The position numbers and the translations under genes are program-made. A DNA stretch of 64,000 bases from DHVE2 group archaeon (lineage in GTDB: Archaea; Thermoplasmatota; Thermoplasmata; Thermoplasmatales; Aciduliprofundaceae), in NCBI GenBank assembly GCA_027023265.1, contig JALVVV010000001.1:1-64000 (forward strand), in the 5' to 3' direction. The notes below the pieces were generated by a model. It saw only the letters and a list, made by a program, of their open reading frames with translations. It was not told where the DNA came from and made no database searches. Of this stretch, positions 11,540 to 29,255 are shown piece by piece (position 1 is the stretch's first letter; every line of letters starts with the position of its first letter).

Positions 11540-12901
11540 ATGGTCCACATCGAGCTCAAGGAATACGATGAAATAGAGCTCGAAATAATACAGGAGAATC
11601 TGTGGGATGGTAGAAAAGATACTATTGGAGACAGAACTTTAGATTTGATCATAGAGTTGAATGAGAAATTTGTTGATGTAGACACTGGCGTGAAGAAAAG
11701 ATTTCTGGATATTGTTGTGTATCCAGGAAAGAATAAAGTCAAAATAAAAGCAAAAAATTGGGTTGGATTTGTAACTGTGAATAATCTAACAATCAACATT
11801 CTTCCAAAGTTCAACAAAGAAGAAGAGAAAGAAAGGGTTATACGGAATCTCGTAAAAATGTTGCAGGTTGCATGGGAGATACCAATTAGAGATGTGGAAA
11901 TTTCCTCTTTGAAACTAGAAAAGGATTCAATATTTGAAGTTCTTATCACCATATACTCCGCCAAACTGCTGGACATGCTCAAAGAGGGGATGTACAGAGA
12001 ATACGTTAGAATATCCGATGACCTGAAATATGTTAAAGGCCAAATTGACTTCTCAAAATACTCCAGAAGATGGGAAAGGCGGCATATCATACCTGTGAAT
12101 TATAACGATAGAAATCCTGATAATATTCTCAATAGAACCCTAAAATACGCAGCACATATAGCATCATTCTACACAGCTAATTCGGATAATTTTGCAAGAC
12201 TGAAAATGATAGAGAACCTTATGGACTCTGTTTCTTCCTCGCCCGTAGCCTTATCTGAAGTGGATAGAATAGCGTTCACCAGATTAAATGATATTTACAA
12301 ACCTTTGGTGAATATGGCTAGGCTGTTAATTGCTAGTGCAAGTCCAGCATTCACTGGGGGAAATAGACATGTGTATGCGTTTTTGATTCCTATGGAAAAA
12401 GTGTTTGAGATTTTTATAGCTAAGATATTAGTGCAATATAAAGAGCGTATTTTTAAAGATACGAATGAAGAGTTAAAAATATATGTGCAGGGTGCTGATA
12501 AAACTAAATATTTGCTGAGAGATGTTGATACGAACCACAAAGTATTCAAATTGATACCTGATATTACCATAAAAATAGGCGATAAGAGGTACATTATAGA
12601 TACAAAATATAAGCTTTTAAACACTGAGGATGAAAAAAGATATGGGGTATCCCCGGATGATGTCTATCAAATGATGGCTTATGCAATTTCCTACGATGCT
12701 GAAAAAATTATGTTGCTGTATCCAAAAAATGTGGCAGACTTTGAAGGAGAAAAAACATGGGGATTTGAGAGCGTTGAGAAAAAGATGGCTAACAAAAAGT
12801 TACTGGTGAGAGATATTGACTTAAGAATAGACTTAATCAATGATTTTGATACGTTATTAAATAAACTAAAAAGCCATATAAATTCCCTTACGGGAGAATA
12901 A
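11540..12901 (+). CDS. mcrC: McrC-like nuclease subunit
   Basis: The product is 453 residues. It supplies the endonuclease of the McrBC complex and stimulates McrB GTPase activity. The N-terminal half is the McrB-binding beta-rich region. The C-terminal half has a PD-(D/E)xK core: LIPDITIKIG near 340 followed by IIDTKYK near 355. The ATG lies 5 bases after the mcrB stop. A GTG three codons earlier overlaps the stop and could also be used. The order mcrB-mcrC and tight coupling are typical. The type I restriction genes follow 46 bases later. Confidence 0.88.
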   Translation: MVHIELKEYDEIELEIIQENLWDGRKDTIGDRTLDLIIELNEKFVDVDTGVKKRFLDIVVYPGKNKVKIKAKNWVGFVTVNNLTINILPKFNKEEEKERVIRNLVKMLQVAWEIPIRDVEISSLKLEKDSIFEVLITIYSAKLLDMLKEGMYREYVRISDDLKYVKGQIDFSKYSRRWERRHIIPVNYNDRNPDNILNRTLKYAAHIASFYTANSDNFARLKMIENLMDSVSSSPVALSEVDRIAFTRLNDIYKPLVNMARLLIASASPAFTGGNRHVYAFLIPMEKVFEIFIAKILVQYKERIFKDTNEELKIYVQGADKTKYLLRDVDTNHKVFKLIPDITIKIGDKRYIIDTKYKLLNTEDEKRYGVSPDDVYQMMAYAISYDAEKIMLLYPKNVADFEGEKTWGFESVEKKMANKKLLVRDIDLRIDLINDFDTLLNKLKSHINSLTGE

Positions 12902-12947
12902 TTAAATAGATTGTCCTTATTATAATGATAGGGTAACGGTGGCCCCT

Positions 12948-15479
12948 ATGTTAAATGAAGCAGATACCCGTGCAAAACTCATAAATCCGAAGTTATATGA
13001 AGCAGGATGGGAAGAGGATAAGATAGGAAGAGAACTACCCATCACAGAAGGAAGAATAATTGATGATTATGGCAACAGAAAAGGTGCTTTGAAGCCCGAT
13101 TATATCCTTTTCCTTGAGAAGAACTTTCCCATAGCGGTGGTGGAAGCAAAAGATGTGAGCCACCATCGTGCAGCAGGGTTGCAGCAGGCTAAGAGATATG
13201 CCCAGATGCTTAATGTTCCTTTTGCATATTCTACCAATGGTCGTGAAATAGAAGAATATGATTTCATAACAAAGAAGCAGACAACCCTTGAGAAGTTTCC
13301 ATCACCCGAAGAGCTGTGGGAGAGATATTCTAAGTGGAAATTCGGCAGGGTAGTGCCTTTAGAGAAGGAGAATAATCCATTGGCTTATCCGTTTAAAATT
13401 GTTAGAGGAAGAAAACCGAGGTACTATCAGATTGCAGCTGTGAAGAGAATAATTGAGGCATTTCTTGACGGTAAAAAGAGGATATTGCTAACGATGGCAA
13501 CGGGTACGGGTAAGACCGAAGTTGCCTTCTGGGTAGTATGGAAACTTTACCATACAAAGAAGATAAGGCGGGTACTCTACATAGCAGATAGAACGATGCT
13601 AAGAGACCAAGCGTATAACCGCTTTGAGCCTTTTGGAAATAAGAGAGATATGATTATAGAGGGAAAAACACCCACAACTAGGGACATTTACTTTGCCACA
13701 TACCAGACGCTTTATTCAGAGAAAGATGGAAAGAGACTCTATAGAAACTACCCGCCAGATTTCTTTGATATGGTTATTATTGACGAGTGCCATCGTTCAG
13801 GTTATGGTCGCTGGAAAGAAATCTTGGATTATTTCTCTGGCGCAGTACACTTTGGTATGACTGCCACTCCCAGAATCAAAACTAATAATGAGAATATTGA
13901 CACTTACGCATATTTTGGAAAGCCTGTATATGTCTACAGCTTGGGGCAGGGCATTGAAGATGGATTCCTGGCGCCTTACAAAATCCACAAAATCTATATG
14001 AATGTAGATAAGAAGGGTGGAATTATATTAGGTGAGGTGGCCAGTGAAGGTGCCATAATCAAAGTTCCAGAAGATGTAGAACCCAAAGAGTTTTATTCTG
14101 TTGGAGAGTTTGAGAAGAGGATTATTCTCCCAGACAGGACAGAGGCTATGACGAAGAAGCTTGCAGAAATATTGAAAACCTATGGGCCACTGGATAAAAC
14201 GATTGTATTTTGTGTAACTAAAGAGCACGCCTTAGATGTGGTTAAGATACTCCAAAATGAGCTTGCTCCTGAGGTAATGAGCACGGGTATTGACGCTGAT
14301 GATTATGTTGTAAGAATAGTTGATGAAGAGCCTAATGTTAAGGAGCTCATAGATAAGATGGCAGATGCAGAATCACAGACACCAGTTATTGCAGTTACCG
14401 TAGATTTATTAAGCACTGGAGTAGATATTCCGCCTGTTAAAAACATTGTGTTCATGAAGCCCATTGCATCCAAGGTTCTTTTCAAACAGATTATGGGCAG
14501 AGGAAGCAGGGTGAGTGAAGATGCCGACAAATTCTATTTCAGAATAATTGATTTTGTGGATGCCACCAGACTTCTAGACCCTTGGGACTTGCCTCCTGAG
14601 TGGGAGCCTCCTGAGCCTCCCGAAGGGCCCTATGATTACTTCATCCGTGGGAAGGTTGTGGATGAGGAGGATGGAAGAGCCATTCCAAATGCCAGAATTA
14701 CCGTTCAGATAGGTGTTAATTCAATAGTTCCCTCCAGGACTGATGATAATGGAGACTTCAGAGTTAGTAAACTTCCAAGGGTTCCTGTCAAAGTGAAGGT
14801 TGAGGCAAAGAACTACAAACCAAGGACAGTAACCGTGGAAACCACACCCTCTGACGATAAGATTTCCGTAGTTATTGAGCTCAAAAAGAAGAAACCGAAG
14901 GAAGGAAAGATTGTTGTTGAAGGAATAAATGTTTACATTGAAGAGGAGATATATGTAGAGGTTGAAGGAAAGAAGCTCAATAAGGCCAAGTATATTGAAT
15001 ATGCCAAGGAGAATGTAAAAGCGAAGGTGCTTACTCTAGATGATTTGAGAAAGATATGGATTAACAGGGAGAGCAGAGAGAAGTTTCTGAAGGAGCTTCA
15101 ATCAAAGAGTATAAATCCCGACCTGATAGCGAGGTTGATGAATAGGCCTGATGCAGATGCGTTTGATATCCTTGCGCATATAGCATTTGACGCCCCTATT
15201 TTGAGCAGAGATGACAGAGCACAGATATTGATGATGGAGAAGCAGGAGATAATAAACTCATTTAATGAGGTAGCCAAAGAGGTACTTTTGAATCTTATTG
15301 AGAAATACAAGGTGGGTGGAATAGACGAGATAACTCCAGAGGCACTGGATACCCCTGATATGCAGAAGATAGGGAAGCTCCAAGAGATAATAAATGCCTT
15401 TGGTGGCATTGATAAACTACAGGAGGCTTTGCAAGAGATTTCTGAGGGCCTCTACGATATAGGTGGAGGGATTAACTGA
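12948..15479 (+). CDS. hsdR: Type I restriction enzyme R subunit with extra beta-sandwich domain
   Basis: The product is 843 residues from the ATG at 12948. Type I R subunits translocate DNA and cut it far from the target. The N-terminal nuclease has KPDYILFLEKN then VVEAKD. The helicase core has ATGTGKTEVAF near 186 and IIDECHRSGYGRW near 278, plus the C-terminal motif MGRGSRVSED near 518. Between the helicase and the C-terminal HsdM-contact region, about residues 563-650, lies GKVVDEEDGRAIPNARI with NGDFRVSKLP, a carboxypeptidase-regulatory-like Ig fold usually found in secreted proteins. The stop overlaps the hsdM start. Confidence 0.9.
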   Translation: MLNEADTRAKLINPKLYEAGWEEDKIGRELPITEGRIIDDYGNRKGALKPDYILFLEKNFPIAVVEAKDVSHHRAAGLQQAKRYAQMLNVPFAYSTNGREIEEYDFITKKQTTLEKFPSPEELWERYSKWKFGRVVPLEKENNPLAYPFKIVRGRKPRYYQIAAVKRIIEAFLDGKKRILLTMATGTGKTEVAFWVVWKLYHTKKIRRVLYIADRTMLRDQAYNRFEPFGNKRDMIIEGKTPTTRDIYFATYQTLYSEKDGKRLYRNYPPDFFDMVIIDECHRSGYGRWKEILDYFSGAVHFGMTATPRIKTNNENIDTYAYFGKPVYVYSLGQGIEDGFLAPYKIHKIYMNVDKKGGIILGEVASEGAIIKVPEDVEPKEFYSVGEFEKRIILPDRTEAMTKKLAEILKTYGPLDKTIVFCVTKEHALDVVKILQNELAPEVMSTGIDADDYVVRIVDEEPNVKELIDKMADAESQTPVIAVTVDLLSTGVDIPPVKNIVFMKPIASKVLFKQIMGRGSRVSEDADKFYFRIIDFVDATRLLDPWDLPPEWEPPEPPEGPYDYFIRGKVVDEEDGRAIPNARITVQIGVNSIVPSRTDDNGDFRVSKLPRVPVKVKVEAKNYKPRTVTVETTPSDDKISVVIELKKKKPKEGKIVVEGINVYIEEEIYVEVEGKKLNKAKYIEYAKENVKAKVLTLDDLRKIWINRESREKFLKELQSKSINPDLIARLMNRPDADAFDILAHIAFDAPILSRDDRAQILMMEKQEIINSFNEVAKEVLLNLIEKYKVGGIDEITPEALDTPDMQKIGKLQEIINAFGGIDKLQEALQEISEGLYDIGGGIN

Positions 15480-16915
15480 TGGATAGGGCAATGCTGAAAT
15501 CAAAGTTCAAGCAGGCATGTGATATCTTAAGGAATGAAATCGCTTCCGTAAATTACATAGTGCAGCTCTCTTGGATGCTCTTCCTAAAATTATACGATGA
15601 GCTGGAAGATGAAAGGGAGATAAAAGCCAAGTTGAGGGGAGAAGTATACAAAAGAAAGATACCTCCGCCATATCGCTGGAAGGATTGGGTTTACAAAGAT
15701 ATGAGAGATGAAGAGGTTATAGATTTCATAAATAACCAGCTGTTTCCCTTCCTGAGAAATCTGGATGGCGATGAGGAAAGTGAGCTCATAGCCACCATAT
15801 TTCGTGGAAAGGAGATTCAGAATTATTTGCACGATGGGTATGTTCTAAAGGATGTTGCCAAACTCCTTGATGCTTTAGAGCTGAAGACGAGAGACGATAT
15901 CTATGTTATATCCACCCTGTACGAGGAATTGCTTCCAGAGATTGGAGAGATGGGCAAGTATGCGGGAGAATACTATACACCTAGGCCAGTGATTAGGCTG
16001 ATGGTAAATATTGTCAATCCTAAAATCGGGGAGAGAATTCTTGACCCGTTTATGGGCTCTGCAGGTTTCCTTATTGAGAGCTATAACCACATTCTGAAGA
16101 GTAAGAAGGTATTCACCACGAAGGAATCCGAGATTCTCAAAGATATGTTCCACGCACAGGAGAAGAAGGATATTCCATATCTAATTGGGATTATGAATCT
16201 CATACTTCACAATGTGCCCACAAAGCATATTCACAAGGTAGATACCTTCGCAGAGGATGTTATGAAGATTCAGGAGAAGGATAGATTCCATATCATTCTC
16301 ACCAATCCGCCGTTTGGAGGCAAGTTTGATAAGAGATACAAAGCCAATTTCCCTATTAAAAGCTCAGATACGGAGTTAATGGCGTTGCAGTATGTGATGA
16401 GAAAAGTAAAGCATGGTGGGAGAGTGGGCATAGTTGTACCAGAGGGTGTACTTTCCAACACCACTGGGCCCTTTGTGAGGGTGAGAAAAGAGCTGCTCCA
16501 AAATTACAATGTGCATACCATAATCTCTCTCCCCAAGGGTGTATTCACCGCCACTGGAAAGACATCTGTTAAGACAAATCTCCTATTCTTTGACAGAACT
16601 GGCTCCACGGAGGAGATATGGTACTACGAGATTCAACCGCCAGAGGGAATGAAGAATTTCACAAAGACTAGGCCTATGATGGATGAGGACTGGAAAGACT
16701 GTCTTGAGAAATGGAAGAAGAGGGAAGTTGGGGAGAATTCGTGGGTGGTGAGCATTGATGATATTGACAACGATACCTACGAGCTCACACCCCGAAATCC
16801 GAGCAAGTTGAAGAAGAAAGAGTACAGACCGCCGAGGGAGATTCTGGAAGATGTTATTAAAGAGGAGAAGGAAGTTATGAATCTCCTTGAAGAGCTGCGA
16901 GGGTTGCTCAAATGA
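15479..16915 (+). CDS. hsdM: Type I DNA methyltransferase M subunit
   Basis: The product is 478 residues. With HsdS it methylates adenine in the recognition site and forms part of the restriction complex. An N-terminal helical HsdM_N region precedes the catalytic domain. SAM motif I is DPFMGSAGFLIE near 200, and the catalytic NPPFGG (the N6-adenine NPPF/Y type) lies near 281. The ATG overlaps the hsdR stop (TGATG). The 3' end overlaps hsdS by 4 bases, so the three genes form one tight operon. Confidence 0.93.
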   Translation: MDRAMLKSKFKQACDILRNEIASVNYIVQLSWMLFLKLYDELEDEREIKAKLRGEVYKRKIPPPYRWKDWVYKDMRDEEVIDFINNQLFPFLRNLDGDEESELIATIFRGKEIQNYLHDGYVLKDVAKLLDALELKTRDDIYVISTLYEELLPEIGEMGKYAGEYYTPRPVIRLMVNIVNPKIGERILDPFMGSAGFLIESYNHILKSKKVFTTKESEILKDMFHAQEKKDIPYLIGIMNLILHNVPTKHIHKVDTFAEDVMKIQEKDRFHIILTNPPFGGKFDKRYKANFPIKSSDTELMALQYVMRKVKHGGRVGIVVPEGVLSNTTGPFVRVRKELLQNYNVHTIISLPKGVFTATGKTSVKTNLLFFDRTGSTEEIWYYEIQPPEGMKNFTKTRPMMDEDWKDCLEKWKKREVGENSWVVSIDDIDNDTYELTPRNPSKLKKKEYRPPREILEDVIKEEKEVMNLLEELRGLLK

Positions 16916-18171
16916 AACTTGACGATTTCATAAAAGAGGAGAAAAAACCGTGGGAAGAGGATGGGATTGAGTGGCGAGAAGTAAAGATAAAAGATGTTTG
17001 TAAAAGAAGGAGCGAGAATGTTATTCCAGATGGGGATAAGGATATCTATGTTGGGCTAGAACACATTCAATCTGGGGAAATTGAACTTAAGAGATGGGAC
17101 TATAGCGGTAAAGTAAAAAGTACAAAGTACAGATTCTATCCAAATGATATATTATACGGTAAATTGCGGCCTTATTTAGATAAAGCAGTTGTAGCTACTA
17201 AAGAAGGGATTTGCTCAACGGATTTCATAGTTATTCAGGCAATTGAAGATAAAATTTTGCCATATTATCTCGTGTTCTTCCTCCACACAAAGTCTTTCGT
17301 AGATTATACCACATCAATGATGAAAGGCGTACATCTCCCAAGAGTATCTTGGAGTACCATAAAAAATGTAAAAATCCCGCTTCCCTTCCGCAACGGCAAA
17401 CCCGATTTGGAGACGCAGCGGAAAATCGTGGAGTACATAGAGGCAAACTTCTCTCGCATTGATGGCATAATTGAGAGGAAGAAGAGAGAGTTGGAGCGTC
17501 TGGATGAGCTCTGGGAAAGCGCACTGGAGCAGGCGTTCAGGCCGAAGGCGGGGGAGGAGTGGAGGGAAGTTAAACTAAAAGCTGCAACAGAAGATATTAA
17601 AAGTGGAGGAACACCAAGTAGGAGAAAAGAGGAATATTGGAAAAATGGCACCATACCATGGGTAAAAATTCAAGACATCCCTGAAGATGGATTTGTAAGT
17701 ACTACTGAAGAAAAAATAACAGAGATTGGGTTAAGAAATTCCTCAGCAAAACTATTGCCAGAGGGGACTATTTTGTTTACTATTTTTGCAACTATTGGAA
17801 GAGTAGGAATACTAAATATTAAAGCCGCAACAAATCAGGCCATTGCGGGAATAATCCCAAAGAGAGAGTATGATACAAAGTATATGTATTGGGTGCTCCG
17901 CAAATTCGGAGAAAATCTAAAAGATAGGGGTAGGGGTGGTGCTCAAAATAATGTAAATTTAACTTTCCTTAGAAATCTCAAAATTCCAGTTCCATTCCGC
18001 AAAGGCAAACCTGACTTAGAAAAACAAAGAGAGATTGCACAATATCTTGATTCTGTCTATGAGAAAATCAGGATGCTAAAGGAGAAAATCCATAACCAGA
18101 TAAGCCAGCTGGAGGAGATGAAAGAAAGCATACTGGAGGAGGTGTTTAATCATCAGGTATTGACTTCATAA
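16912..18171 (+). CDS. hsdS: Type I specificity subunit with two target-recognition domains
   Basis: The product is 419 residues. It selects the DNA target for both methylation and cleavage. It shows the internal symmetry of HsdS: each target-recognition domain is followed by a conserved helix with nearly the same lead-in, PFRNGKPDLETQRKIVEYI near 163 and PFRKGKPDLEKQREIAQYL near 362. The two variable domains (about 20-160 and 222-358) differ, as expected for a bipartite target. The ATG overlaps hsdM. The final 26 bases overlap the convergent gene at 18146. Confidence 0.93.
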   Translation: MKLDDFIKEEKKPWEEDGIEWREVKIKDVCKRRSENVIPDGDKDIYVGLEHIQSGEIELKRWDYSGKVKSTKYRFYPNDILYGKLRPYLDKAVVATKEGICSTDFIVIQAIEDKILPYYLVFFLHTKSFVDYTTSMMKGVHLPRVSWSTIKNVKIPLPFRNGKPDLETQRKIVEYIEANFSRIDGIIERKKRELERLDELWESALEQAFRPKAGEEWREVKLKAATEDIKSGGTPSRRKEEYWKNGTIPWVKIQDIPEDGFVSTTEEKITEIGLRNSSAKLLPEGTILFTIFATIGRVGILNIKAATNQAIAGIIPKREYDTKYMYWVLRKFGENLKDRGRGGAQNNVNLTFLRNLKIPVPFRKGKPDLEKQREIAQYLDSVYEKIRMLKEKIHNQISQLEEMKESILEEVFNHQVLTS

Positions 18172-19222: not shown

Positions 19223-19786
19223 ATGAACCCAATATTGAAGTCAGGAGTGCGGATACTCAGACCAGATGAGTATGTTTCACTTAGAAATGCTATAAAGAGC
19301 ATGGAGCATCAGATAATCCTTGATACTGCTCTCCTGACTGGAATGCGATGGGTTGAGCTACAGAGATTCAAAAAGCATCCAGAATGGTATGAGGCAAAAG
19401 GAGGGTACATATTTCTTCCTAAAGAGGCCTCAAGAAAGAAAAAGAGAACACTGAAAGAGAGGTATGTTTATCTCTCATCCCAAGGAAAGGCCATCGTTCC
19501 ATTCTTTCTGAAAATAGAGGGGAATATACCTTCCCGAATAACATGGAATGAAAATCTAAAACGCTGGGCAAAGAGTGCAGGGATAGACCCAATAGGTATA
19601 TCTGCGAAGACTACGAGAAAGACATGGGAGAGTTGGTTGGTGGCCACATATCCTGAGAGAATCCTCCTTATTGCTATGTCGCAAGGGCATACGGCAATAA
19701 CTGCGATGAAACATTATCTAAATTTACCTTTTGATGAGGAAATAAAAAAGAAGATTAAAGAATACACTTCAGGCTGGGGACCTTAG
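19223..19786 (+). CDS. Second tyrosine recombinase, catalytic core only
   Basis: The product is 187 residues. It corresponds to just the catalytic half of a tyrosine recombinase and has no N-terminal core-binding domain. Visible residues are Arg in LLTGMRWVELQRF near 42, Lys in the KKKRTLKERYV region, Thr-x-x-Arg as KTTRKTWESW near 134 (in place of the usual His-x-x-Arg), QGHT near 154 and the likely nucleophile Tyr in KHYLNLPF near 164. Such short forms occur on archaeal plasmids and viruses. It may resolve dimers, invert DNA or act as an excision partner. The gene opposite ends 2 bases from its stop. Confidence 0.75.
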   Translation: MNPILKSGVRILRPDEYVSLRNAIKSMEHQIILDTALLTGMRWVELQRFKKHPEWYEAKGGYIFLPKEASRKKKRTLKERYVYLSSQGKAIVPFFLKIEGNIPSRITWNENLKRWAKSAGIDPIGISAKTTRKTWESWLVATYPERILLIAMSQGHTAITAMKHYLNLPFDEEIKKKIKEYTSGWGP

Positions 19787-19788
19787 TT

Positions 19789-22700
19789 CTATGCTGTTGC
19801 GTCTTTCAATGCACGTTCTATATCTTTTATATTCTCCAATAAGCGGAATAATTTATATGAGTTAGAATATCTCTTATTTGTATCTAACTTTGTAATCTGC
19901 TTTTTTAACTGCGATAGTACCTTTTTATACATATCTATCCTGGGTATATCATCATTCACCTTGTCTAAAAGCATAGATTTCGTACGTTGTTTGTCAATAG
20001 AAGAAAGTGGTAAAATTGTTTGATGTAACATAGATAAATATACGTTAACCCCATCATTTAAAATATCACTATACTGCTCTAAAAACTCTTTCAGTTTAGA
20101 AAATAGAAAATCTAAAAACTTAACTCCCCAGAGATGTGTTCCTACATAAATAATCCTGCGGAATTCATCTATCACATACTCATCATACGATGGCTCAGTT
20201 TCCTCTTCTAGAGGTAAATCCTTGATATTGAACACATAATTGATAATATCAACAAACTCTTTGGGAATATCTCTTTCCTTCAATATACCAAAATACTCCT
20301 GAGGTTTACTTAACGTTAGGGGAAATATAAAATCTGATTTGCTTATATCTACGTATCCGCAAGGGAATGCCCAAGGAATATCTAAATCAAATATCGTGTT
20401 TAGACCAAAATCTGGAAATACAGAAATAATTGATGATATAATATATGGCGAAGGTATTTTTATGTCATCTTTTAGAATGTGATTACAATATTTATCCAAA
20501 TCCATGTTATGATACCAGTATTTAGGGTGTTTTCTGATTTCCAACAAATCTTTTATTAATTCTTGAGATTCTACCCCTTTGCAAGATAACCATATGTCTG
20601 AGAGAATCTTTAATATATCAACTTCCCATGGATAGGCATCTTCTTTTTTCATTAAAGAGTCCTTCAAAGCATATAGGAGTTTCTGCAAGTCCTCTATTAT
20701 GCCCGCCCCTTTGATATTACATTTTCCGATTCTGTGATATAAATAATCTCTCTTCACAAGGTAATTATACAATAGCTCTGCAATTTTTACACGTACATTC
20801 GGGGATTCGTTATCATCCCCTATGTAAGGTAAGGCCTCTGAAACAATTTTCCTGATATAATTATATATCCCATTATTTTGATTTTTCCGTGCCAAATAAT
20901 TCAAGGTTGACAAGGCATTCACTCTTTTTTGTTCGTCTTGTGTTTTATCAAGAATGACCATGCGTAAATACCCAAATAATTTCTCTTGATTGTGTCTCAC
21001 TATACAAGAGAGAACAGGATTTATTTTAGAATCATATGTTAGAAGTGGCTTTGAATTTAACGTTTCTTTAAACAGTACCATAAACTCATCAAAGTAAATA
21101 TTATTACAGTTTTTCTCCACGTAACTCCAGAACAGTATAGAATTGTCGGCATAAGGTGAATGTACCATATACAACATTATTTCAGCATACTCCCCATATA
21201 ATTCTTCAAATAATTCCTCGTTCGTGTATTTAACTCCAGCCATTCTATTTATCTCTCTCACCCAGTCAGAAGTTTTTAACCACACGACAATATATTTATT
21301 TGCATTTTCATTCTTTATCGCTTTTATAAGTATATTGAAAGCATCTTTAATTACCTCGTTATCATCCATCATCCATAATTTAGTAATTAGCCATAATGCT
21401 TCCACAATATCATGTTTATCATTCTGAGAAAGTGCCCATTCAATATGTGCGAGTATAATATCTTTTTTCTCCTTAGCCTTCAATTCTATGAGGGCCTCAT
21501 ATACACGATGAAGGCAAGGCTTGCATTTGTCTTTGAGGTCATCAGTTAGACTCACCAAATAATCAATTACTTCATCCCTATGATTAGGTTCTTTTCCTGA
21601 TTTTATCATCGCTTCAATAACGTCCTTAAAATCAATACGTATCCCATCATTTTGTTTATGCTGTTTATTCTGCTTAATAGTCCTAAACTTGGAGGCTATC
21701 TCATACAGATATTTGGCACCACACCCCAGATGGCCTAAAGCTTTAATCGCCTTATTTAAGATGTAATAACGATTATATGCACTTTTCCCAACCTTTCTAT
21801 AATCAATTATGTATTTCATAGATTTTAAAAATATCTGCTTAATAAGTTCACATGATTTTGGATTCTTATCTCCAAATTTAGTTAGGATATCTATTACTAT
21901 TTTATATGCCTTTACTATCTCTTCTAGGTCATCGTCTGAATTACCATACTTGTGAAATACCTCCTTATTAGGGTCACAAATATATGTTGGACTATAACTG
22001 TCGATAAAAGATTTCAGTACAGGTAACAGATGTTCGATATTTATCTTGTTTTTCCCAGCATTAATAAGCATAGAGTAAAGTGTAGATAAAACAGAATTCG
22101 CTAAACACGTATATTTTTTAGCTTCCTCTGAAGAAAGTATTCTTTTCACAAATGAAAACGCTTGGTCAGAGTAAAACAATTCAAGATTTTTAATAATCAT
22201 TGATTTTGCAAATATAATATCCTTTATTTCATCTTCTTTAGAGTATGGAGGACTGTAAGGACATGCTTCCTCTTTAATAATATTTTCAATATTCCAGAAT
22301 TTGTCCTCGTATGTGTTGTATATGTCGATTATGTGTTCAAGTGCCTTCTCACTCCCTGTCTTACCTAATAGCGATAGCACTGTAATAATTTCCGATTTAT
22401 CGCAAGATTTATTAAGTATATTCACAAGTGCATCAAAAGTTTCCTTTTTGAATGATATTTTATCAAAACTCAGAAGAGTGGTTATTATCTTTGTACGTAA
22501 GAAACTATGCTGTGTGTCTAATAGATATCTCTCAACGATACTTACAAAATCGACAGATTCATTTAAAACAGAAAATAAGAAGTCTACCAATTCGTATTTG
22601 ATGTGTTCTTCGGTATTTTCATTTTTGAAAAGCTCTATTGCTAACGGGAGATAGTTTTCAGCCATATCTGCTTTCTCTATGATATCTATAGCTTTTTTAA

Positions 22701-23787
22701 CTTTCACTAAATCATTTGACACTAGGAGATTACGCACACGCACAGATAACTCATCCAAATTAGATTCTTCTTGCACCTTTGAAGGTGTTTCTTTTGGGTA
22801 AATATTAGTATCTCCACTAAGGAATATATTCCTAATCTCTTCCTTAACAGACCCAACATCGGATTCTTTAGGTATAGCCTTTAGGACTTGCTTTATTTCA
22901 GACAATTGCTTTTTTATCTCATCACTAAACCCAAAGTGATGCTGTTGGTTTAAGAGCTTATCAACGTAAGTTCTAAAATTAATCATGTCTGCTGGTGAAT
23001 TGATTTCATCAATGTGTGCAATTGTGTTATCTTTTATTATCTTGTCCATATACTCATTTGTGATATCCCTCAGAGCGCCATATTTGGACTCAATAAACCG
23101 TGGCAACATAGCAAAATTGATGGTATCGCCACTCAGGAAAGTGATATTATTAGAAATTGGCAAAAATCTATGCTCCCCTACAACTAGATATTTAGAAAGC
23201 TCTTTGTACGCATATATGTTGGGGATATAAAGCCATCTTATTCGGTCTTTTCCGTTGCATACTTTGATATTAGTTTTATCTGGAAGGATAGGTACTCCAA
23301 ATATATACCTATAAATTTCCTTTGAGGATTCCTCTTCCCAATGAGCCAACTCACTCATATCTACTTTCCTTCCCTCAAAATTGGCTGTACGTAACCACTC
23401 CAAAATTAAGGATTTTAATTTACCTCTTTTATCATACAGTTGCTTAACAGGGTGCATGTCAATCTCTTCGCCATCTAATGTTTTCCACGTATCATAATAC
23501 CCTCGATTTTCATTATCCCCGGGGGTAATATTGCAATTTAACGTCAAAACCCCTCCTCTCTTCATGTCTACCTTATTTTTTAATTCTAATATGGCTGCGT
23601 ATTTAGGAGTAAATATAAGCATGTCGTATTCCTGTTTTTTAATTTTTAGATTTAGAAATATGTACATATCCTCTATCCGTTCGTCATTAGTGATATATGC
23701 TTCACACAGAGCTTTTAAAAAATCGTTGATTTGCTCCCGTTCCCAATCGCCTTGGGGTGGGTTTGCTTCATATATTCTGAACACCAT
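19789..23787 (-). CDS. 1332-residue NERD-like nuclease plus helical-repeat protein, coupled to viperin
   Basis: The N-terminal part (about 1-130) looks like a NERD nuclease domain. EYDMLIFTPKYAAILELKNK supplies Asp, Glu and Lys of a PD-(D/E)xK site, followed by conserved MHPVKQLYDKRGKLKSLI. From about 270 to 1330 the protein is a continuous series of paired helices of HEAT/armadillo type, with no second recognisable enzyme. The start lies 2 bases after the viperin stop, with GGAGG inside the viperin tail, so the two are translationally coupled. It is visibly AT-rich. I infer a nuclease effector or sensor working with the viperin. The family is not known to me. Confidence 0.8.
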   Translation of the reverse strand: MVFRIYEANPPQGDWEREQINDFLKALCEAYITNDERIEDMYIFLNLKIKKQEYDMLIFTPKYAAILELKNKVDMKRGGVLTLNCNITPGDNENRGYYDTWKTLDGEEIDMHPVKQLYDKRGKLKSLILEWLRTANFEGRKVDMSELAHWEEESSKEIYRYIFGVPILPDKTNIKVCNGKDRIRWLYIPNIYAYKELSKYLVVGEHRFLPISNNITFLSGDTINFAMLPRFIESKYGALRDITNEYMDKIIKDNTIAHIDEINSPADMINFRTYVDKLLNQQHHFGFSDEIKKQLSEIKQVLKAIPKESDVGSVKEEIRNIFLSGDTNIYPKETPSKVQEESNLDELSVRVRNLLVSNDLVKVKKAIDIIEKADMAENYLPLAIELFKNENTEEHIKYELVDFLFSVLNESVDFVSIVERYLLDTQHSFLRTKIITTLLSFDKISFKKETFDALVNILNKSCDKSEIITVLSLLGKTGSEKALEHIIDIYNTYEDKFWNIENIIKEEACPYSPPYSKEDEIKDIIFAKSMIIKNLELFYSDQAFSFVKRILSSEEAKKYTCLANSVLSTLYSMLINAGKNKINIEHLLPVLKSFIDSYSPTYICDPNKEVFHKYGNSDDDLEEIVKAYKIVIDILTKFGDKNPKSCELIKQIFLKSMKYIIDYRKVGKSAYNRYYILNKAIKALGHLGCGAKYLYEIASKFRTIKQNKQHKQNDGIRIDFKDVIEAMIKSGKEPNHRDEVIDYLVSLTDDLKDKCKPCLHRVYEALIELKAKEKKDIILAHIEWALSQNDKHDIVEALWLITKLWMMDDNEVIKDAFNILIKAIKNENANKYIVVWLKTSDWVREINRMAGVKYTNEELFEELYGEYAEIMLYMVHSPYADNSILFWSYVEKNCNNIYFDEFMVLFKETLNSKPLLTYDSKINPVLSCIVRHNQEKLFGYLRMVILDKTQDEQKRVNALSTLNYLARKNQNNGIYNYIRKIVSEALPYIGDDNESPNVRVKIAELLYNYLVKRDYLYHRIGKCNIKGAGIIEDLQKLLYALKDSLMKKEDAYPWEVDILKILSDIWLSCKGVESQELIKDLLEIRKHPKYWYHNMDLDKYCNHILKDDIKIPSPYIISSIISVFPDFGLNTIFDLDIPWAFPCGYVDISKSDFIFPLTLSKPQEYFGILKERDIPKEFVDIINYVFNIKDLPLEEETEPSYDEYVIDEFRRIIYVGTHLWGVKFLDFLFSKLKEFLEQYSDILNDGVNVYLSMLHQTILPLSSIDKQRTKSMLLDKVNDDIPRIDMYKKVLSQLKKQITKLDTNKRYSNSYKLFRLLENIKDIERALKDATA

Positions 23788-23789
23788 GT

Positions 23790-24716
23790 CTACTCAACCT
23801 CCTTAATGGTACCAGAACTTTTAACATTTACTCTCTGCCATTCGTAAATACCATCCCTTTTAACAAATTTATCAATATCCCATCGTGCCTCTCTTAAGGC
23901 TGCGTAGGGGTTATCAAATATTGTGTGTGTCGTGTACTCATATTTTCCGTAATTACTGAAAAATCTGCCATCAGGAAACATCATAAGGTATGACCCCTGC
24001 ATATATTCATTAGTTTCACCAACAACTTGGATACCTGACCTTTCTAATACTTCGTGTCTTTTCACAAATTTCCAGAATTCTTCCTCAGTGACTTTAAGTT
24101 CGTCTGAAAAATCATCATTGATTCCAGGAATGTGTAAATATTGGAAAAACTTTGCACGTTTAGGCATTATTTTGAGTAAAATAGGTACTAAGTTGTCATT
24201 TATGTTAAGCTTCGTTACCACCGTATTTGTCTTCAACAGAATTCCTAGCTCCTTTGCCCATTGAGCTACCTCCAGCACTTTGCTTACGTGATTTCCATAC
24301 CCTCTTCCTAAAAGCACCTCTGTCTCTTCACTGGGGGAATCTATGCTTATGCCTAACCAATCTAACACACTTGCTAATCGGATTAAATCCTCTCTTTTAA
24401 TAAGGCTTGCATTTGTAATCACCATTGTGGTTATTTCGCATTTCTTAGCTTCGCTAAGTAACCTTTCTAGCAGTTTGGGATATAGAAATGGCTCTCCCCC
24501 TTCAATTGTCAGTTTTGTAGTCCCCAAATTTCTAAGAATACACGGTATTTCATATATTCGGTCGTAATTGAATAATTCCAAATCACCTCTGAACCTAGCA
24601 AAACAAAACTTACAACGATAATTGCATCTGTCTGTGAGCACAAGATTCACACTAATAGGCTCTAAACTATCCAACGCAGAATCGACTGGTTTTTGGGTTT
24701 GGGTAACTAAATCCAT
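23790..24716 (-). CDS. Probable prokaryotic viperin (radical SAM antiviral enzyme)
   Basis: The product is 308 residues. The radical SAM cluster motif CNYRCKFC lies near 33-40, and GGEPFLYP near 74 binds SAM. Beyond generic radical SAM features it has viperin-like landmarks: NASLI near 102, GISIDSPSEETEVLLGRG near 120, KTNTVVTKLNINDN near 153, EEFWKFVKRHE near 203, and the ending in which a Tyr-Trp pair follows FVKRDGIYEW. Viperins turn CTP, GTP or UTP into 3'-deoxy-3',4'-didehydro nucleotides that terminate viral RNA synthesis. It has its own promoter and is followed immediately by the NERD-helical gene. No nucleotide kinase partner is adjacent. A related radical SAM activity is the alternative. 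Confidence 0.82.
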   Translation of the reverse strand: MDLVTQTQKPVDSALDSLEPISVNLVLTDRCNYRCKFCFARFRGDLELFNYDRIYEIPCILRNLGTTKLTIEGGEPFLYPKLLERLLSEAKKCEITTMVITNASLIKREDLIRLASVLDWLGISIDSPSEETEVLLGRGYGNHVSKVLEVAQWAKELGILLKTNTVVTKLNINDNLVPILLKIMPKRAKFFQYLHIPGINDDFSDELKVTEEEFWKFVKRHEVLERSGIQVVGETNEYMQGSYLMMFPDGRFFSNYGKYEYTTHTIFDNPYAALREARWDIDKFVKRDGIYEWQRVNVKSSGTIKEVE

Positions 24717-24720
24717 ATTG

Positions 24721-24735
24721 TGGGGTTAAACCCCA
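24721..24735. promoter_or_regulatory. Palindromic operator candidate in the viperin leader
   Basis: TGGGGTTAAACCCCA is a perfect 15-bp palindrome with a single central base. It lies 4 bases before the viperin ATG and downstream of a TATA-like AATATTTATAT at about 24765-24776. Bound protein here would block transcription of the viperin and nuclease genes. As RNA it could form a hairpin next to the start codon. Confidence 0.6.
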
Positions 24736-24790
24736 AAGCCAACATTTAATCTTAATAAAGGACTCATATAAATATTTTTCCCAGTTGTCA

Positions 24791-25360
24791 TCAGGAGTTG
24801 CACATATAATCCTGAGCTACAGCGTAATTGAAAATCAAAAAATCTTTCAGGAACTCCTCATCATAGAGTGCTGCTAGATTCTCATAGGCGTAAATCTCTG
24901 CGTATTCATCGGCATCGGATATACCAGAGGAGCTCTTTAGAGGCATGCCTCTCCAATATGCTCTGTGCCCAAGCTCGTGGAGAAGTACCTTCTGAATGAA
25001 TGCCACAACCACATTTTCCATATCTTTCTTTTCCAAATATGGAATAAATGCCAGAAGTTGCCTGTATATGGCCTCTAAATACCCTACGCTGAACTCATGG
25101 ATGAAAATTCCATAGATTACCTGTTTCTTTCCCTTAATTTCCTCTTCTCCCTGAGCAATCTCTGCCATACTGAACGGATGTCTTTTCTCGGTAGTAAAAA
25201 CAATGGCAGTATCTGGAGGAATGGTCAAAGATTTTAGAGCTTTAGCCACATATTTTTCATGTCTGTATGCTGGCCTATCTCCCTTAAGCCACCTAACCTT
25301 CTCAAGATATGGCACCAGCTCTTTAGTCGTTACTCCGAATATCCTATCTCTTTTTTCCAT
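24791..25360 (-). CDS. Zinc metallopeptidase-like protein (HExxH)
   Basis: The product is 189 residues. LLHELGHRAYW near 128-138 is the gluzincin HExxH signature, and DADEYAEIYAYENL near 158 offers the downstream Glu ligand. There is no signal peptide or membrane span, so it is cytosolic. In overall size it resembles ImmA/IrrE-type peptidases that cleave repressors of mobile elements. The gene begins inside the last codons of the relaxase-like gene (17-base overlap), so the two are co-expressed. Cleavage of an element-encoded repressor is an attractive but untested role. Confidence 0.7.
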   Translation of the reverse strand: MEKRDRIFGVTTKELVPYLEKVRWLKGDRPAYRHEKYVAKALKSLTIPPDTAIVFTTEKRHPFSMAEIAQGEEEIKGKKQVIYGIFIHEFSVGYLEAIYRQLLAFIPYLEKKDMENVVVAFIQKVLLHELGHRAYWRGMPLKSSSGISDADEYAEIYAYENLAALYDEEFLKDFLIFNYAVAQDYMCNS

Positions 25361-25994
25361 ACCTATTCATCTCCGCAATCTCCTCCCACATGTCCTTCTC
25401 TACCATGTTATATCTTCGTATAATCTTTGTTTTGTATTTCTCCAAATCAAGAATTTTGCTGGTGTCTTTGGTATTTCTGATTATCCTCTCAATTTTTATC
25501 ACATGGGCATTCTTCCCAACGGGCTCATCTAATCTTTTGAAAAATAGAACTTTCAAAGCCTCCAGCTGAGAAGGTTTGATGTATAGTCTTGAAGGTATTT
25601 TAGATACTTGAAAAATATGGAGGTGGGGATGAGAGGAATGTGTATGATACGCATAGATAGTGATTATGTTATCCTTTCCCGTGAGTTTCTCAAATTCGTA
25701 TAGTACATCCCTGTATATTCCCAGTAGCTGGGGAAGTGAGTACTTTCGTTCTATAGGTACTAATACTGTATGCCTCATTATCCCCGTGGCATCCCAAATT
25801 TCAAAAATTTTCTCCAGTGAAGGCTCCAAAGACCTTCGTGATTTGTCAGGGAGAGGATAAGATGCTCCTCCGATGGTGTAGAGCAAGGGAGAATATCTTT
25901 TATTGTCCACCAAGTGCCTGTTTTTCATGTATTTTATCCACTTGGTGGCATCGTCTCCCTTGCGTTTAACGGCCACCATTGTTCGGAGGAGCAT
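25344..25994 (-). CDS. HUH relaxase/Rep-like endonuclease
   Basis: The product is 216 residues. YHTHSSHPHLHIFQV near 116-130 has the three-His cluster of the HUH superfamily and resembles MOBP-type relaxases. Candidate nucleophilic tyrosines lie in KYKTKIIRRYNMVE near 190-197. HUH enzymes nick one DNA strand to start rolling-circle replication or conjugative transfer. At this size it lacks a helicase or primase domain. It shares an 18-bp promoter motif with the second recombinase and overlaps the metallopeptidase gene. A 13-bp inverted repeat spans its start codon. Confidence 0.7.
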   Translation of the reverse strand: MLLRTMVAVKRKGDDATKWIKYMKNRHLVDNKRYSPLLYTIGGASYPLPDKSRRSLEPSLEKIFEIWDATGIMRHTVLVPIERKYSLPQLLGIYRDVLYEFEKLTGKDNIITIYAYHTHSSHPHLHIFQVSKIPSRLYIKPSQLEALKVLFFKRLDEPVGKNAHVIKIERIIRNTKDTSKILDLEKYKTKIIRRYNMVEKDMWEEIAEMNRYGKKR

Positions 25995-25996
25995 CT
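25860..25996. repeat. 13-bp inverted repeat spanning the start of the relaxase-like gene
   Basis: AGATGCTCCTCCG at 25860-25872 is repeated as its exact complement CGGAGGAGCATCT at 25984-25996. The right arm contains the start codon of the relaxase-like gene (minus strand). In the mRNA the two arms could pair and hide the AUG. As DNA they could form a cruciform or nicking target. Confidence 0.55.
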
Positions 25997-26018
25997 AATA
26001 AATGTAAAGAGTGGTTAC

Positions 26019-26036
26019 ATATAAGGGGTAGCTACC
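26019..26036 (-). promoter_or_regulatory. Second copy of the 18-bp motif, before the relaxase-like gene
   Basis: Read on the minus strand this is GGTAGCTACCCCTTATAT, identical to 19183-19200. It ends 24 bases before the ATG of the relaxase-like gene; the other copy ends 22 bases before its gene. The shared sequence and spacing point to one regulator acting on both genes. Nearby AATTAG-rich repeats (26040-26115) have no assigned role. Confidence 0.65.
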
Positions 26037-26227
26037 ATAATTAGTAAAATTAGAAATCCCAAGTGCATAGGTCTTTTGCATAATTAGAGAAATTAGTTAG
26101 TTAAATTATGATTGGTCAAAGTTTTTTCAGAGTTGATGATGAGTTTTACGCATCAAAAATGCATCTTGTGCCATAATTATTATAATTTTCCCAGTGCTCT
26201 GTGTTCCCAGTACTGCAACTCAAAATT

Positions 26228-26264
26228 TTTATACCACCACGGTATTATACCTCTGTGGTATAAA
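26228..26264 (+). promoter_or_regulatory. 37-bp dyad over the promoter and start of the ATPase gene
   Basis: The segment is symmetrical about base 26246, with only three mismatched pairs. The outer arms are ATACCAC (26231-26237) and GTGGTAT (26255-26261), and the inner arms are GGTAT and ATACC. It runs into the A of the ATG at 26264, so it would overlie both the core promoter and the start codon. This is expected for a tight autorepressor site. Confidence 0.65.
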
Positions 26265-27586
26265 TGAAGTTCTACGACAGGGAGAAGGAGATGGAAATAC
26301 TCCGAAAGGCCACGAGAGTGGCAATCATAGGGCGAAGGAGAGTTGGGAAAACTAGGCTTGTGGAGGAGACCCTGAAGCCAATCACACTCTTCATCCCTTC
26401 CGAGAAAAATGAGGCACTCATTTGCAGAGACTGGATAACCGAGATAAAGAAGAGGAGATACATCCCAGAGAGTTTGAGCACAATGAAGGACATCGTGGAG
26501 TTCCTGATGGAAGAAGGTGAAACAATATTCATAGATGAGCTCCAGAATGCCATGAAAATCAATCCTTCATTCCTGTCAGATTTGCAGAGGCTGATAGATT
26601 CCCACAGAAATGCAAAACTGGTGGTCACAGGCTCCCTCATAAGCATGTCAAAGAAGATGGTTGAGGATTACCGCAGCCCTCTGTATGGAAGATTTGATTA
26701 CACCATAAAACTAAGAGAGCTCTCATTCTCCACGGTATATGAGATTATGCAGGATTTGGGCTATGAGATAGAGGATGCCGTTGTGATGTGGGCTGTATTC
26801 GGTGGTTTGCCAAAGTATTATGAAACCCTAGAGAAATTCAAAGTGCCTGTGATGGATTTCATAAGAATGATGTTCTACGAGGAGCCGTATCCCATGCTCA
26901 GCGAGGTAATGATGATGCTGAAGGAGGAGGTTGGCAGGGAGTACAAGGTGTATTTCAGCATTCTACAGGCCATCGCCGAGGGAAATTCACGAATGGGTGA
27001 GATTGCATCGTATATGGGGTTGAAGAGCACGGATATCAGCAAGTATATACACGCCCTTTACAACGATTACGAGCTCATTTCCCGCAGGAAAGATGCCTTT
27101 GGCAAAGGTAAGTACAGGTACTTCATATCCCAGAATCTCATTGATTTCTGGTTCAGAACCGTGTGGAAGAATTATCCGAAATACGAACTCGGGCAGGTGG
27201 AGTTTAAAGAAGAGGATATACGGATATATGTGGGCAGAAAATATGAGCAGCTAGTAGAACTATTCGCTCAGAATTTTGTAGATTTCAAGATTAAGAGCAT
27301 CGGTAAGCTCTGGGGTAAGTACGAGGGAAAAGAGAAAGGCAAGGAGAGCTTTGAGATTGATATCGCAGCAGTTGGAGAGATGAAAATATCTCTGTTTGAG
27401 GTGAAATGGTCGGAGCTGGATGATAAAGCAGTAAAAAAGGAATTAGAAAAGCTAAACGAGAAGGCGGAGGCCATCAAAGATAAGAGAGAGAAAGAACTGA
27501 TAATTGTGGCCAAAAAAGTGAAAAAGAAGAAAGAGAATGTATATGATTTGGGAGACATAGAAAATATTGTTCAAAATGTAAAGTAG
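26264..27586 (+). CDS. Archaeal AAA-type ATPase with C-terminal nuclease-like domain (DUF234 type)
   Basis: The product is 440 residues. REKEMEIL then IIGRRRVGKTRLVEETL gives Walker A near 24. Walker B is FIDELQNAM near 86, and the sensor is VTGSLISM near 125. A winged helix follows (230-280). The C-terminal part has FEIDIAAVG then SLFEVKWSE near 385, the D...ExK pattern of an inactive or active PD-(D/E)xK nuclease. This family is abundant in archaeal genomes and mobile elements, with unknown biochemical role. A long dyad overlaps its promoter and start codon. Its end overlaps the convergent small gene by 16 bases. Confidence 0.82.
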   Translation: MKFYDREKEMEILRKATRVAIIGRRRVGKTRLVEETLKPITLFIPSEKNEALICRDWITEIKKRRYIPESLSTMKDIVEFLMEEGETIFIDELQNAMKINPSFLSDLQRLIDSHRNAKLVVTGSLISMSKKMVEDYRSPLYGRFDYTIKLRELSFSTVYEIMQDLGYEIEDAVVMWAVFGGLPKYYETLEKFKVPVMDFIRMMFYEEPYPMLSEVMMMLKEEVGREYKVYFSILQAIAEGNSRMGEIASYMGLKSTDISKYIHALYNDYELISRRKDAFGKGKYRYFISQNLIDFWFRTVWKNYPKYELGQVEFKEEDIRIYVGRKYEQLVELFAQNFVDFKIKSIGKLWGKYEGKEKGKESFEIDIAAVGEMKISLFEVKWSELDDKAVKKELEKLNEKAEAIKDKREKELIIVAKKVKKKKENVYDLGDIENIVQNVK

Positions 27587-27801
27587 ATTACTCTTCTCTT
27601 TGTTTTGTGGTCTATTTTTCTCCTTTTTACTGAGTAATGCTTCTCTAAAATCAGTGTTATTCGTGTCTTTTCATGTCTGCTAAGGGATAATCCTAAGTAT
27701 CCTTCAATTTCATCATGTATTCTCATTTGCGTTGCAATTTTTTCTTTTAGGAGTACTTGGTCAGCGATTCTTATAATTAATCTCTTTGATATCTTGCTCA
27801 T
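27571..27801 (-). CDS. Small basic protein of unknown function
   Basis: The product is 76 residues, Lys/Arg-rich and mostly helical, possibly DNA-binding. The ATG overlaps the stop of the Rep-like gene, so it is translated from the same message. No family is recognised. Its tail overlaps the convergent ATPase gene. Confidence 0.55.
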   Translation of the reverse strand: MSKISKRLIIRIADQVLLKEKIATQMRIHDEIEGYLGLSLSRHEKTRITLILEKHYSVKRRKIDHKTKRRVIYFTF

Positions 27802-28772
27802 TCAATCTCACCCCTTATCGGCGGAGAATCAAAGGAAATTATATCATACTCTGCTGATTTTATATCACCTAATTCCTTTGAAATTTCTGCAATTATTTCC
27901 ATTATACTTTTGACTGTATCCATGGGGATACTCTTGGATAAAGATGAGATTTGGACATTCATTTCTGATATCTTTGATTCTATGTTTTCTAGTTTGTTTA
28001 TAAAAGTAGTGAATTCATATCTCCCTTCGATACCAAAATATAGAATACCTATCAAATCCTCAAGTGTTGCAATTTTTGGGTCGTTATGTTTGCTACTCAT
28101 GTGCGCTTCGAATCGCGTGGATTTGCCATGCTGGTAAATTCTTATGAGGGCATTTATGTATGCAGCCAATGTAATGCTTGTGTGTCCACTTATATATAAT
28201 TTCTCTATATCTCTACTAATGCCTGTTTGAATAACCATAAATTCATTCGAAGGGATTCCAAAAGTACCTATACTCCAACCAGCAAGAAAGAGGGATTCAT
28301 ATATGGAAAGTGGCTTTTCTGTCGTCTCTTTCACCCATATTTCAAGAAGATTCGGATGCACAGTGATTGTCAATGGTATTAATATATTATTTACCTCTAA
28401 TGTATAAAAAACAATTAATGAATGGTTTTTGGGATGCTGTTTTATTGGTGACCTAGGAAACTTATTTCTTAGGTAAGACTCTGTGTAAAATTCGTGGCAT
28501 TTGGTACCTCTATATTCCAGTTTTATTCCATGAAGTTTTAACTCTGGTTTAGCAAGCCCGTATTTGGTGACGATTGTTTTTTTACTACGATAAAAGCCCC
28601 AAAATGGCCTATCAATTTCCCCTTTCCGATAAAGCCTCCGAACTTCTTTTCTAACCGTGGAGACTTTTTCATGAATGTGTATTGCTATCCCTTTCACACT
28701 ATCTGGATAGGGTGCTATCGCATCCAAATATCTCTTTATTTTTTCACCCACAGTACTCTTCGTTCTAGTCAT
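27798..28772 (-). CDS. Rep-like winged-helix protein of the element
   Basis: The product is 324 residues from the ATG at 28772, chosen because AGGAGGGG lies 7 bases upstream. An in-frame ATG 12 codons earlier has no such site. The N-terminus (to about 55) is a winged helix (STVRKEVRRLYRKGEIDRP). The middle is a mixed alpha/beta domain with two possible metal-binding His (TVHPN, SGHTS) and no clear catalytic motif. The C-terminal 70 residues are a coiled coil. It sits at the tRNA-proximal end behind repeated AAAAGTGGCA sequences. Replication or partition initiation is a reasonable guess; a regulator is equally possible. Confidence 0.6.
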   Translation of the reverse strand: MTRTKSTVGEKIKRYLDAIAPYPDSVKGIAIHIHEKVSTVRKEVRRLYRKGEIDRPFWGFYRSKKTIVTKYGLAKPELKLHGIKLEYRGTKCHEFYTESYLRNKFPRSPIKQHPKNHSLIVFYTLEVNNILIPLTITVHPNLLEIWVKETTEKPLSIYESLFLAGWSIGTFGIPSNEFMVIQTGISRDIEKLYISGHTSITLAAYINALIRIYQHGKSTRFEAHMSSKHNDPKIATLEDLIGILYFGIEGRYEFTTFINKLENIESKISEMNVQISSLSKSIPMDTVKSIMEIIAEISKELGDIKSAEYDIISFDSPPIRGEIE

Positions 28773-28797
28773 AGATATCCCCTCCTTCTGACATGGT

Positions 28798-28885
28798 AAA
28801 AGTGGCATTCAAAATGGCAAAATGTTGTAGTAGTCTTACGGAAACCCCAGAAAATACATTGTTTTCGAAGACACGAAAAGTGGCA
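28798..28885. repeat. Iteron-like repeats upstream of the Rep-like gene
   Basis: AAAAGTGGCA occurs exactly at 28798-28807 and 28876-28885. A shortened form, AAAATGGCAAAAT, lies at 28811-28823. They are in direct orientation 26-113 bases before the start at 28772. No gene is seen in 28773-29118. The remainder of that stretch holds only the conserved block at 29014 and AT-rich sequence. Confidence 0.5.
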
Positions 28886-29116: not shown

Positions 29117-29132
29117 AGTGGGGGCACTGGGA
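29117..29132. repeat. Proximal attachment site within tRNA-Trp
   Basis: This is the right copy of the 16-bp repeat AGTGGGGGCACTGGGA, forming the acceptor 3' strand, discriminator and start of the T arm of tRNA-Trp. Because the repeat restores the full 3' end, the tRNA remains functional after integration. Confidence 0.85.
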
Positions 29133-29255
29133 TTCGAACCCAGATCCGCGGGTCACTCCTGCGGTCAGCGCTCCAGTTAGTCATCATCTTTCAGCTGACC
29201 CTCTTGTCATCACGTAACTGGAGCCCGCTAGGATGCCTGGTTACCCCATGCCCCC
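29119..29255 (-). tRNA. tRNA-Trp (CCA) with a 64-nt intron
   Basis: Exon 1 is 29218-29255 and exon 2 is 29119-29153. The acceptor stem GGGGGCA/TGCCCCC ends in A73. The anticodon stem GCGGG/CCCGC encloses C-T-CCA-G-(intron)-A. The T loop TTCGAAT is present. The intron sits after position 37, the usual archaeal place. A TATA-like CTTTATATT lies about 30 bases upstream (near 29282-29290). The 3' end is the integration site of the element. Confidence 0.93.
29154..29217 (-). ncRNA. tRNA-Trp intron acting as a box C/D guide RNA
   Basis: Box C is GTGATGA (29207-29213), D' is CTGA (29191-29194), C' is ATGATGA (29181-29187) and D is CTGA (29165-29168). The sequence before D (CTGGAGC) pairs with the anticodon region and places C34 at the fifth base from the box. 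The sequence before D' (GGGTCA) pairs across the intron-exon 2 junction and places position 39 at the fifth base. In Haloferax and relatives this intron is known to guide 2'-O-methylation at 34 and 39. Here position 39 is C, not U. Confidence 0.85.

Follow-up and report, generated by a model that had tools for sequence, protein, structure and literature searches.

The open reading frame P0001 of the window analysed here (the window being the whole stretch of 64,000 nucleotides), from a DHVE2-group archaeon related to Aciduliprofundum of deep-sea vents, very probably encodes a relaxase. The protein belongs to a family of bacterial enzymes whose archaeal branch, though known, is little described. 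Together with the overlapping gene P0002, coding for a zincin-like partner, and a hairpin that may act in cis, this MOBP-like relaxase probably constitutes the mobilisation module of an integrated element. The coordinates of the gene pair and its surroundings are listed in Table 1.

Table 1 Features of the relaxase-like locus and its surroundings in the window.
Feature	Position	Strand	Remarks
Tyrosine recombinase (integrase), C-terminal-domain-only	19223..19786	+	
Viperin and 1332-aa NERD/HEAT module	19827..24807	-	~5 kb; between integrase and P0002
Putative zincin-type metallopeptidase gene P0002	24791..25360	-	189 aa; H128-E-x-x-H132
Overlap of P0001 and P0002	25344..25360	-	17 bp; plausible translational coupling
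MOBP-like relaxase gene P0001	25344..25994	-	216 aa; Y22; H117, H122, H124, H126
Nested hairpin, candidate oriT/relaxase-binding site or translational control element	25860..25996	-	137 nt, 41 pairs
Intergenic region, relaxase to divergent ATPase	26001..26263		three 18-nt repeats
Operator-like inverted repeat before divergent ATPase gene	26228..26264		matches elsewhere in family genomes
AAA_14-DUF234 ATPase, divergent from relaxase	26264..27586	+	syntenic in G206, G330, G174
76-aa and 336-aa genes between ATPase and tRNA	27571..28808	-	function unassigned
Intron-containing tRNA-Arg(CCT), possible attachment-site flank	29118..29255	-	

Reading of the ORFs in the window placed both genes on the minus strand, with outer coordinates exactly as claimed in the first-pass annotation and with P0002 overlapping the 3' end of P0001. 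The HxHxH cluster and the HExxH motif that had been ascribed to the two proteins are present as well, the former as HTHSSHPHLH within the segment Y116-H-T-H-S-S-H-P-H-L-H126 of P0001 and the latter as H128-E-L-G-H132 of P0002. Translation of P0001 could start at either M1 or M6. Comparison of the window with the sister genome G206 yielded dN/dS values of 0.12 for P0001 and 0.23 for P0002, and a value of 0.28 was obtained for P0002 against the genome G174. These ratios point to purifying selection on both genes, and the values against G206 argue for real genes and not chance ORFs. The length of the overlap is the same in G206 and G174; its sequence is identical in G206 and G330 and carries two substitutions in G174. 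As the overlap is conserved, translational coupling of P0001 and P0002 is plausible, and the co-translation assumed earlier stands to this extent. Additional to the first-pass annotation are a tyrosine (Tyr22) upstream of the HUH cluster, homologous operons of relaxase and coupling protein (T4CP) genes, and the hairpin within the 5' part of the relaxase gene.

P0001 matched a single NCBIfam family, MobP3 (NF041499; E 3.2e-5, residues 108-155), so the earlier designation as MOBP-type is right in substance. The match is short, and its score of 23.7 does not reach the curated full-length cut-off of 150 bits; we therefore use the label MOBP-like by homology and not by cut-off. A Pfam profile search returned no match for P0001. 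Relatives at 19-34% identity are present in the same archaeal family, and the close ones score just under the curated cut-offs of PF03432 (Relaxase) and MobL. Weak matches from the same order (L010-L012, E 0.002-0.008) were dropped, being absent from the profile search. With an Aciduliprofundum relative as plasmid query, haloarchaeal proteins, several of them annotated as 'relaxase', and Bacillota MobP2 relaxases were retrieved; P0001 and P0002 as plasmid queries gave no relatives, and scans of viral contigs found none. Three haloarchaeal relaxases tested on Pfam exceeded the gathering score of PF03432. Profile-profile alignment of P0001 and its two nearest relatives with a profile of haloarchaeal plasmid relaxases gave 94.9% (E 4.7e-8), compared to 0.03-0.25% for the controls (ten column-shuffled profiles and one reversed).

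Residues Y22, P80, H117, H124, H126 and E157 are invariant when archaeal and bacterial MobP2 members are included, with the three histidines covered by 9-10 homologues. The pattern of motif III, H-x-[DN]-x3-4-P-H-x-H, is matched by H117...H122-P-H124-L-H126, the D/N position being occupied by His119 in P0001 and by Asp in the relative from genome G400. Tyr22 is the candidate nicking tyrosine of motif I and is invariant in all aligned relatives. Rep proteins and Y1 transposases have their nicking tyrosine after the HUH cluster; relaxases, like P0001, have it before. An AlphaFold model of P0001 reached medium confidence (pLDDT 68), and its best PDB matches in Foldseek were the relaxase domains of R1162 MobA (prob 0.97) and pMV158 MobM (0.90). 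The top match superposes poorly (rmsd 15.1 over 215 columns, E 1.6e-3); the identity of the two best matches points to a relaxase HUH fold, which the medium-confidence model and the high rmsd leave tentative. Family profiles, profile-profile alignment, the fold match, the invariant tyrosine and histidines and the T4CP linkage of relatives together lend good support to the relaxase reading.

In the Aciduliprofundum genomes, at a second locus of G330 and on contig L039, a T4CP gene lies directly 3' of the relaxase gene or after one small overlapping ORF. The T4CPs next to the relaxases of Aciduliprofundum, a DHVE2 MAG and L039 match TrwB_AAD_bind at E 1e-35 to 1e-38, and in the Aciduliprofundum loci an RHH gene precedes the relaxase. 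Relaxase and T4CP genes follow each other in this way on the haloarchaeal plasmids inspected as well, apart from one small plasmid with unnamed neighbours; no T4CP adjoins the relaxase relatives at L036 and L037. L039 (JALVYB010000079.1) is a 94-kb contig binned as a candidate division WOR-3 bacterium. As the gene order of its relaxase-T4CP locus is of archaeal type, the contig may have been binned wrongly, or the element may have crossed domains.

In the lineage of the window, P0002 occupies the slot 3' of the relaxase where relatives have the T4CP, and no T4CP was found in the window genome (G000) or in the other genus-g1 genomes searched. A single element combining relaxase, T4CP and VirB4/T4SS, by which a self-transmissible ICE is recognised, was not found, the VirB4-like gene of G000 lying on another contig. 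Because of the missing T4CP, the P0001/P0002 unit would be mobilisable and not self-transferring by the standard route, and a coupling protein and a pore would have to be supplied in trans, by analogy with bacterial mobilisable elements. We favour this mobilisable-element reading with moderate confidence. The VirB4-like ATPase is encoded at 57299-58849 of G000:C54 (L091) and also occurs in G206:C60, G174:C64, G400 and G401; a multi-gene membrane cluster lies upstream of it in G000 and G206. Conservation of this ATPase in the genus, with no T4CP detected, may reflect a T4SS that was domesticated or a system for DNA import.

The gene pair sits between the tyrosine recombinase and the tRNA-Arg gene (Table 1). 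In G206 and G174 the integrase gene directly adjoins the P0002 gene, and a relative of the recombinase is found near the Aciduliprofundum relaxase-T4CP locus of G357. The viperin module that separates the two genes in the window is absent from G206 and G174. It comprises a prokaryotic viperin (23790-24716, minus strand), detected by NF038283 with 225 bits (cut-off 180) and by PADLOC pVip at E 1e-66, and a partner of 1332 aa (19789-23787, minus strand) with weak NERD and HEAT matches, which may be a new viperin-associated defence protein. The window also contains a defence island on the plus strand (9174-18171), made up of a restriction-type pair (9174-12901) and type I hsdRMS. The restriction-type pair shares 69% DNA identity with genes near an A. 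boonei-type relaxase; G013, a relative in the family of the window genome, we take to be A. boonei. The divergent DUF234 ATPase also matches the PADLOC candidate PDC-S27.

A relaxase of G400 (L085 3231-3794, G400:C165) with 34% identity and the motif HSDTPYPHVH lies beside the same tRNA-Arg(CCT)-PGK locus, which suggests that this locus is a preferred site; neither a peptidase nor a T4CP gene adjoins the G400 relaxase. The window holds no second copy of the tRNA-Arg 3' end as an att repeat when up to three mismatches are allowed, and the tRNA-Arg locus is rearranged in G206.

The hairpin spans the start codon region and codons 1-45 of P0001. Its predicted stability is -63.3 kcal/mol as RNA (z -8.2), with a z of -8.1 as DNA. 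In a scan of 3192 folding windows over the 64 kb on both strands, the hairpin region accounts for the two most extreme folds (z about -7.9), followed by the tRNA-Arg region (z -5.1). Shuffling synonymous codons of the P0001 gene abolishes the fold, with none of 300 shuffles being as stable (z -6.4). Summed over three genomes, third-position changes number 6/138 in codons 1-46 and 82/494 in the rest of the gene (p 8e-5); the genomes compared are not historically independent, and recombination may lie behind the G330 contribution. G206 and G330 together have four substitutions in the hairpin, all of them in unpaired nucleotides, with 60% of the span paired; of the 12 in G174, whose relaxase ORF is broken, 6 hit paired nucleotides. 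The relaxase genes of relatives outside this clade do not contain the hairpin. Given a promoter-like TTATATG ~30 bp before the first ATG, a leaderless P0001 transcript may begin within the hairpin, which makes translational control as good a reading of this element as oriT.

The intergenic region between the relaxase and the divergent ATPase carries its three 18-nt CATAATTA..AATTAG-type repeats at 26036, 26079 and 26172. This region has diverged less than the adjacent coding DNA when compared with G330 and G174; in the comparison with G206 it is not less diverged than the relaxase gene. A tract of 478 bp around the relaxase start and the intergenic region (25818-26295) differs at two positions from L021 (G330:C5), a locus of a different genus, with flanks 8-9% diverged. 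As gene conversion or recent transfer may explain this tract, the case for an oriT does not rest on it. Selection on a cis site as the cause of the near-identity was set aside, since G206 has 14 substitutions in the same intergenic stretch. The segment 26216-26265, with the operator-like inverted repeat, has matches of 43-65 bp in many family genomes, suggesting a shared regulator.

Homologues of P0002 were found only in G000, G206, G174 and, truncated, in G330. Searches of Pfam, NCBIfam, PADLOC and PDB sequences gave nothing for the protein, PHROG gave a marginal hit to one unknown family, and the fold model of P0002 was too poor for an informative fold search. Downstream of the HExxH motif, D149/D151/E152/E155 are candidates for an acidic third ligand. 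HELGH and these residues (DADEYAE segment) are invariant in the only three close homologues available, a pattern compatible with a zincin. The last few codons of P0002 in the window differ from those in G206 and G174, and in G330 the truncated gene is fused in frame to a gene for a XerC-like chromosomal recombinase. In G174 the P0002 ORF is intact and the relaxase ORF broken, with MAG sequencing errors as a caveat; this mildly argues that P0002 may not act only with or on the relaxase. Two zincin-type neighbours of related relaxases are of interest here, i.e., an ArdC-like gene downstream of a bacterial MobP2 relaxase and, ~6 kb from the A. boonei-type relaxase, a zincin that matches ArdC/MPTase weakly. 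Homology of P0002 to the latter was rejected, as only the HExxH motif aligns, and no ArdC or MPTase profile and no recognisable ArdC ssDNA-binding domain was matched in P0002. By analogy, P0002 might tentatively be seen as an ArdC-like accessory in establishment or anti-defence.

The first-pass annotation had assigned the peptidase another task, namely to clear a repressor or to cleave the relaxase when transfer begins, which would make it ImmA-like. The co-translation implied by the 17-bp overlap would suit such a role, as would the acidic residues ~17-23 positions downstream of HExxH, which fit zincins of both the M78 and the ArdC type. Moreover, bacterial ICEs are controlled by ImmA/ImmR modules (PMC10233336). 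However, P0002 has no M78 match in Pfam at E values of up to 10, an assignment to ImmA was rejected on this ground together with the uninformative fold search, and no cI/ImmR-like HTH gene adjoins P0002. The nearest regulator candidates, the genes of 76 and 336 aa, lie 2-3 kb off, past the divergent ATPase, and neither scores above cut-off for any HTH family, and the persistence of P0002 in G174 slightly weakens the idea of repressor or relaxase cleavage. We consider an ImmA-like function distinctly unlikely. The metalloprotease ArdC of R388 is required by recipient cells to counter hsdRMS (PMC7213743); in view of such precedents and of the lack of a cI-like gene adjoining P0002, an ArdC-like role is favoured over repressor cleavage of the ImmA type.

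That P0001 is a rolling-circle replication initiator or a transposase instead of a relaxase is highly improbable. The HUH nuclease fold is common to all three, the third PDB match of the model is wheat dwarf virus Rep, and the hairpin with the nearby repeats could be a replication origin. This reading was nevertheless rejected, because the conserved tyrosine is N-terminal to the HUH cluster, the family matches of P0001 and its relatives are relaxases, and these relatives are operonic with T4CP genes. Alternatively, P0001 and P0002 could be remnants of a conjugative element whose T4CP was lost, without a present role in transfer. The failure to find a T4CP in the genus-g1 genomes searched would agree with this, as would the broken relaxase ORFs of G174 and G330, by which relaxase activity may be vestigial in the group, and the truncated, fused P0002 of G330. 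Since both genes are intact and under constraint in G000 and G206, and the hairpin substitutions of G206 and G330 avoid paired positions, we regard a pure relic as fairly unlikely. Very unlikely, in our view, is the specific combination of an oriT within the first 46 relaxase codons (a 41-bp hairpin) with a metallopeptidase that, from the T4CP slot, licenses or ends transfer by proteolysis.

For the favoured mobilisation module, the following course can be envisaged. P0001, a small single-domain MOBP-like relaxase, would bind the origin of transfer, and Tyr22 would nick one strand with a metal held by H117/H124/H126, leaving the protein covalently attached to the 5' end of the nicked strand. 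In the self-transmissible archaeal relatives, the coupling protein encoded by the next gene would hand the relaxase-DNA complex to the type IV secretion system. The element without T4CP would borrow the coupling protein and the pore from a co-resident conjugative element, and its module may be decaying in some lineages. The zincin-like P0002, presumably co-translated with P0001, might be an ArdC-like accessory that targets a host or element protein at an early stage of transfer or establishment. The 137-nt hairpin could serve the relaxase as a cis element, either as oriT or by limiting the translation of its own gene. Tyr22 and the candidate target DNA provide concrete objects for testing, and, if the hairpin is nicked, archaeal MOBP elements would gain a candidate origin of transfer.

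To our knowledge, archaea were long thought to be largely without relaxases. Among archaeal ICEs, that of A. boonei alone was reported to have a recognised relaxase (Guglielmini et al. 2011, PMC3158045), and earlier surveys reported none in thaumarchaeal ICEs; unknown relaxases or double-stranded transfer were inferred for archaea (PMC3158045, PMC6563490). The relaxase-T4CP locus of Aciduliprofundum encodes a homologue of P0001 (profile A8, E 3e-10) whose Tyr, Arg and His motifs are ordered as in P0001, and a sister locus contains a C-terminal-only tyrosine recombinase related to that of the window. Protein identity between the relaxases is only about 22-26%, however, and Aciduliprofundum combines an RHH gene, relaxase and T4CP with a VirB4 elsewhere in the genome, whereas the window has neither RHH nor T4CP and a metallopeptidase as the next gene. 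As far as searched, the P0002 partner and the in-gene hairpin are previously undescribed.

ArdC of R388 (PMC7213743) and the MPTase-PolyVal zincins (PMC5512222) are metallopeptidases of conjugative elements, as P0002 may be. ArdC counters restriction of the hsdRMS class, and the unit in the window lies near hsdRMS-type genes; P0002 differs in lacking a recognisable ArdC ssDNA-binding domain and in matching neither profile. Haloarchaeal plasmid relaxases, e.g., those of Halalkalicoccus jeotgali plasmid 2 (typed as MOBP by MOB-suite) and Haloarcula pelagica, are small single-domain proteins with the same catalytic pattern as P0001, but in their case the T4CP gene comes next, usually overlapping or abutting, and the loci inspected contain no peptidase partner. 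Bacterial MobP2/MobP3 (MobL), RP4 TraI and R1162 MobA share the order of tyrosine and HUH cluster with P0001, but are much longer proteins, whose full-length cut-offs P0001 does not reach. The comparison ties the A. boonei-type proteins, the haloarchaeal plasmid relaxases and the P0001 branch into one archaeal relaxase family.
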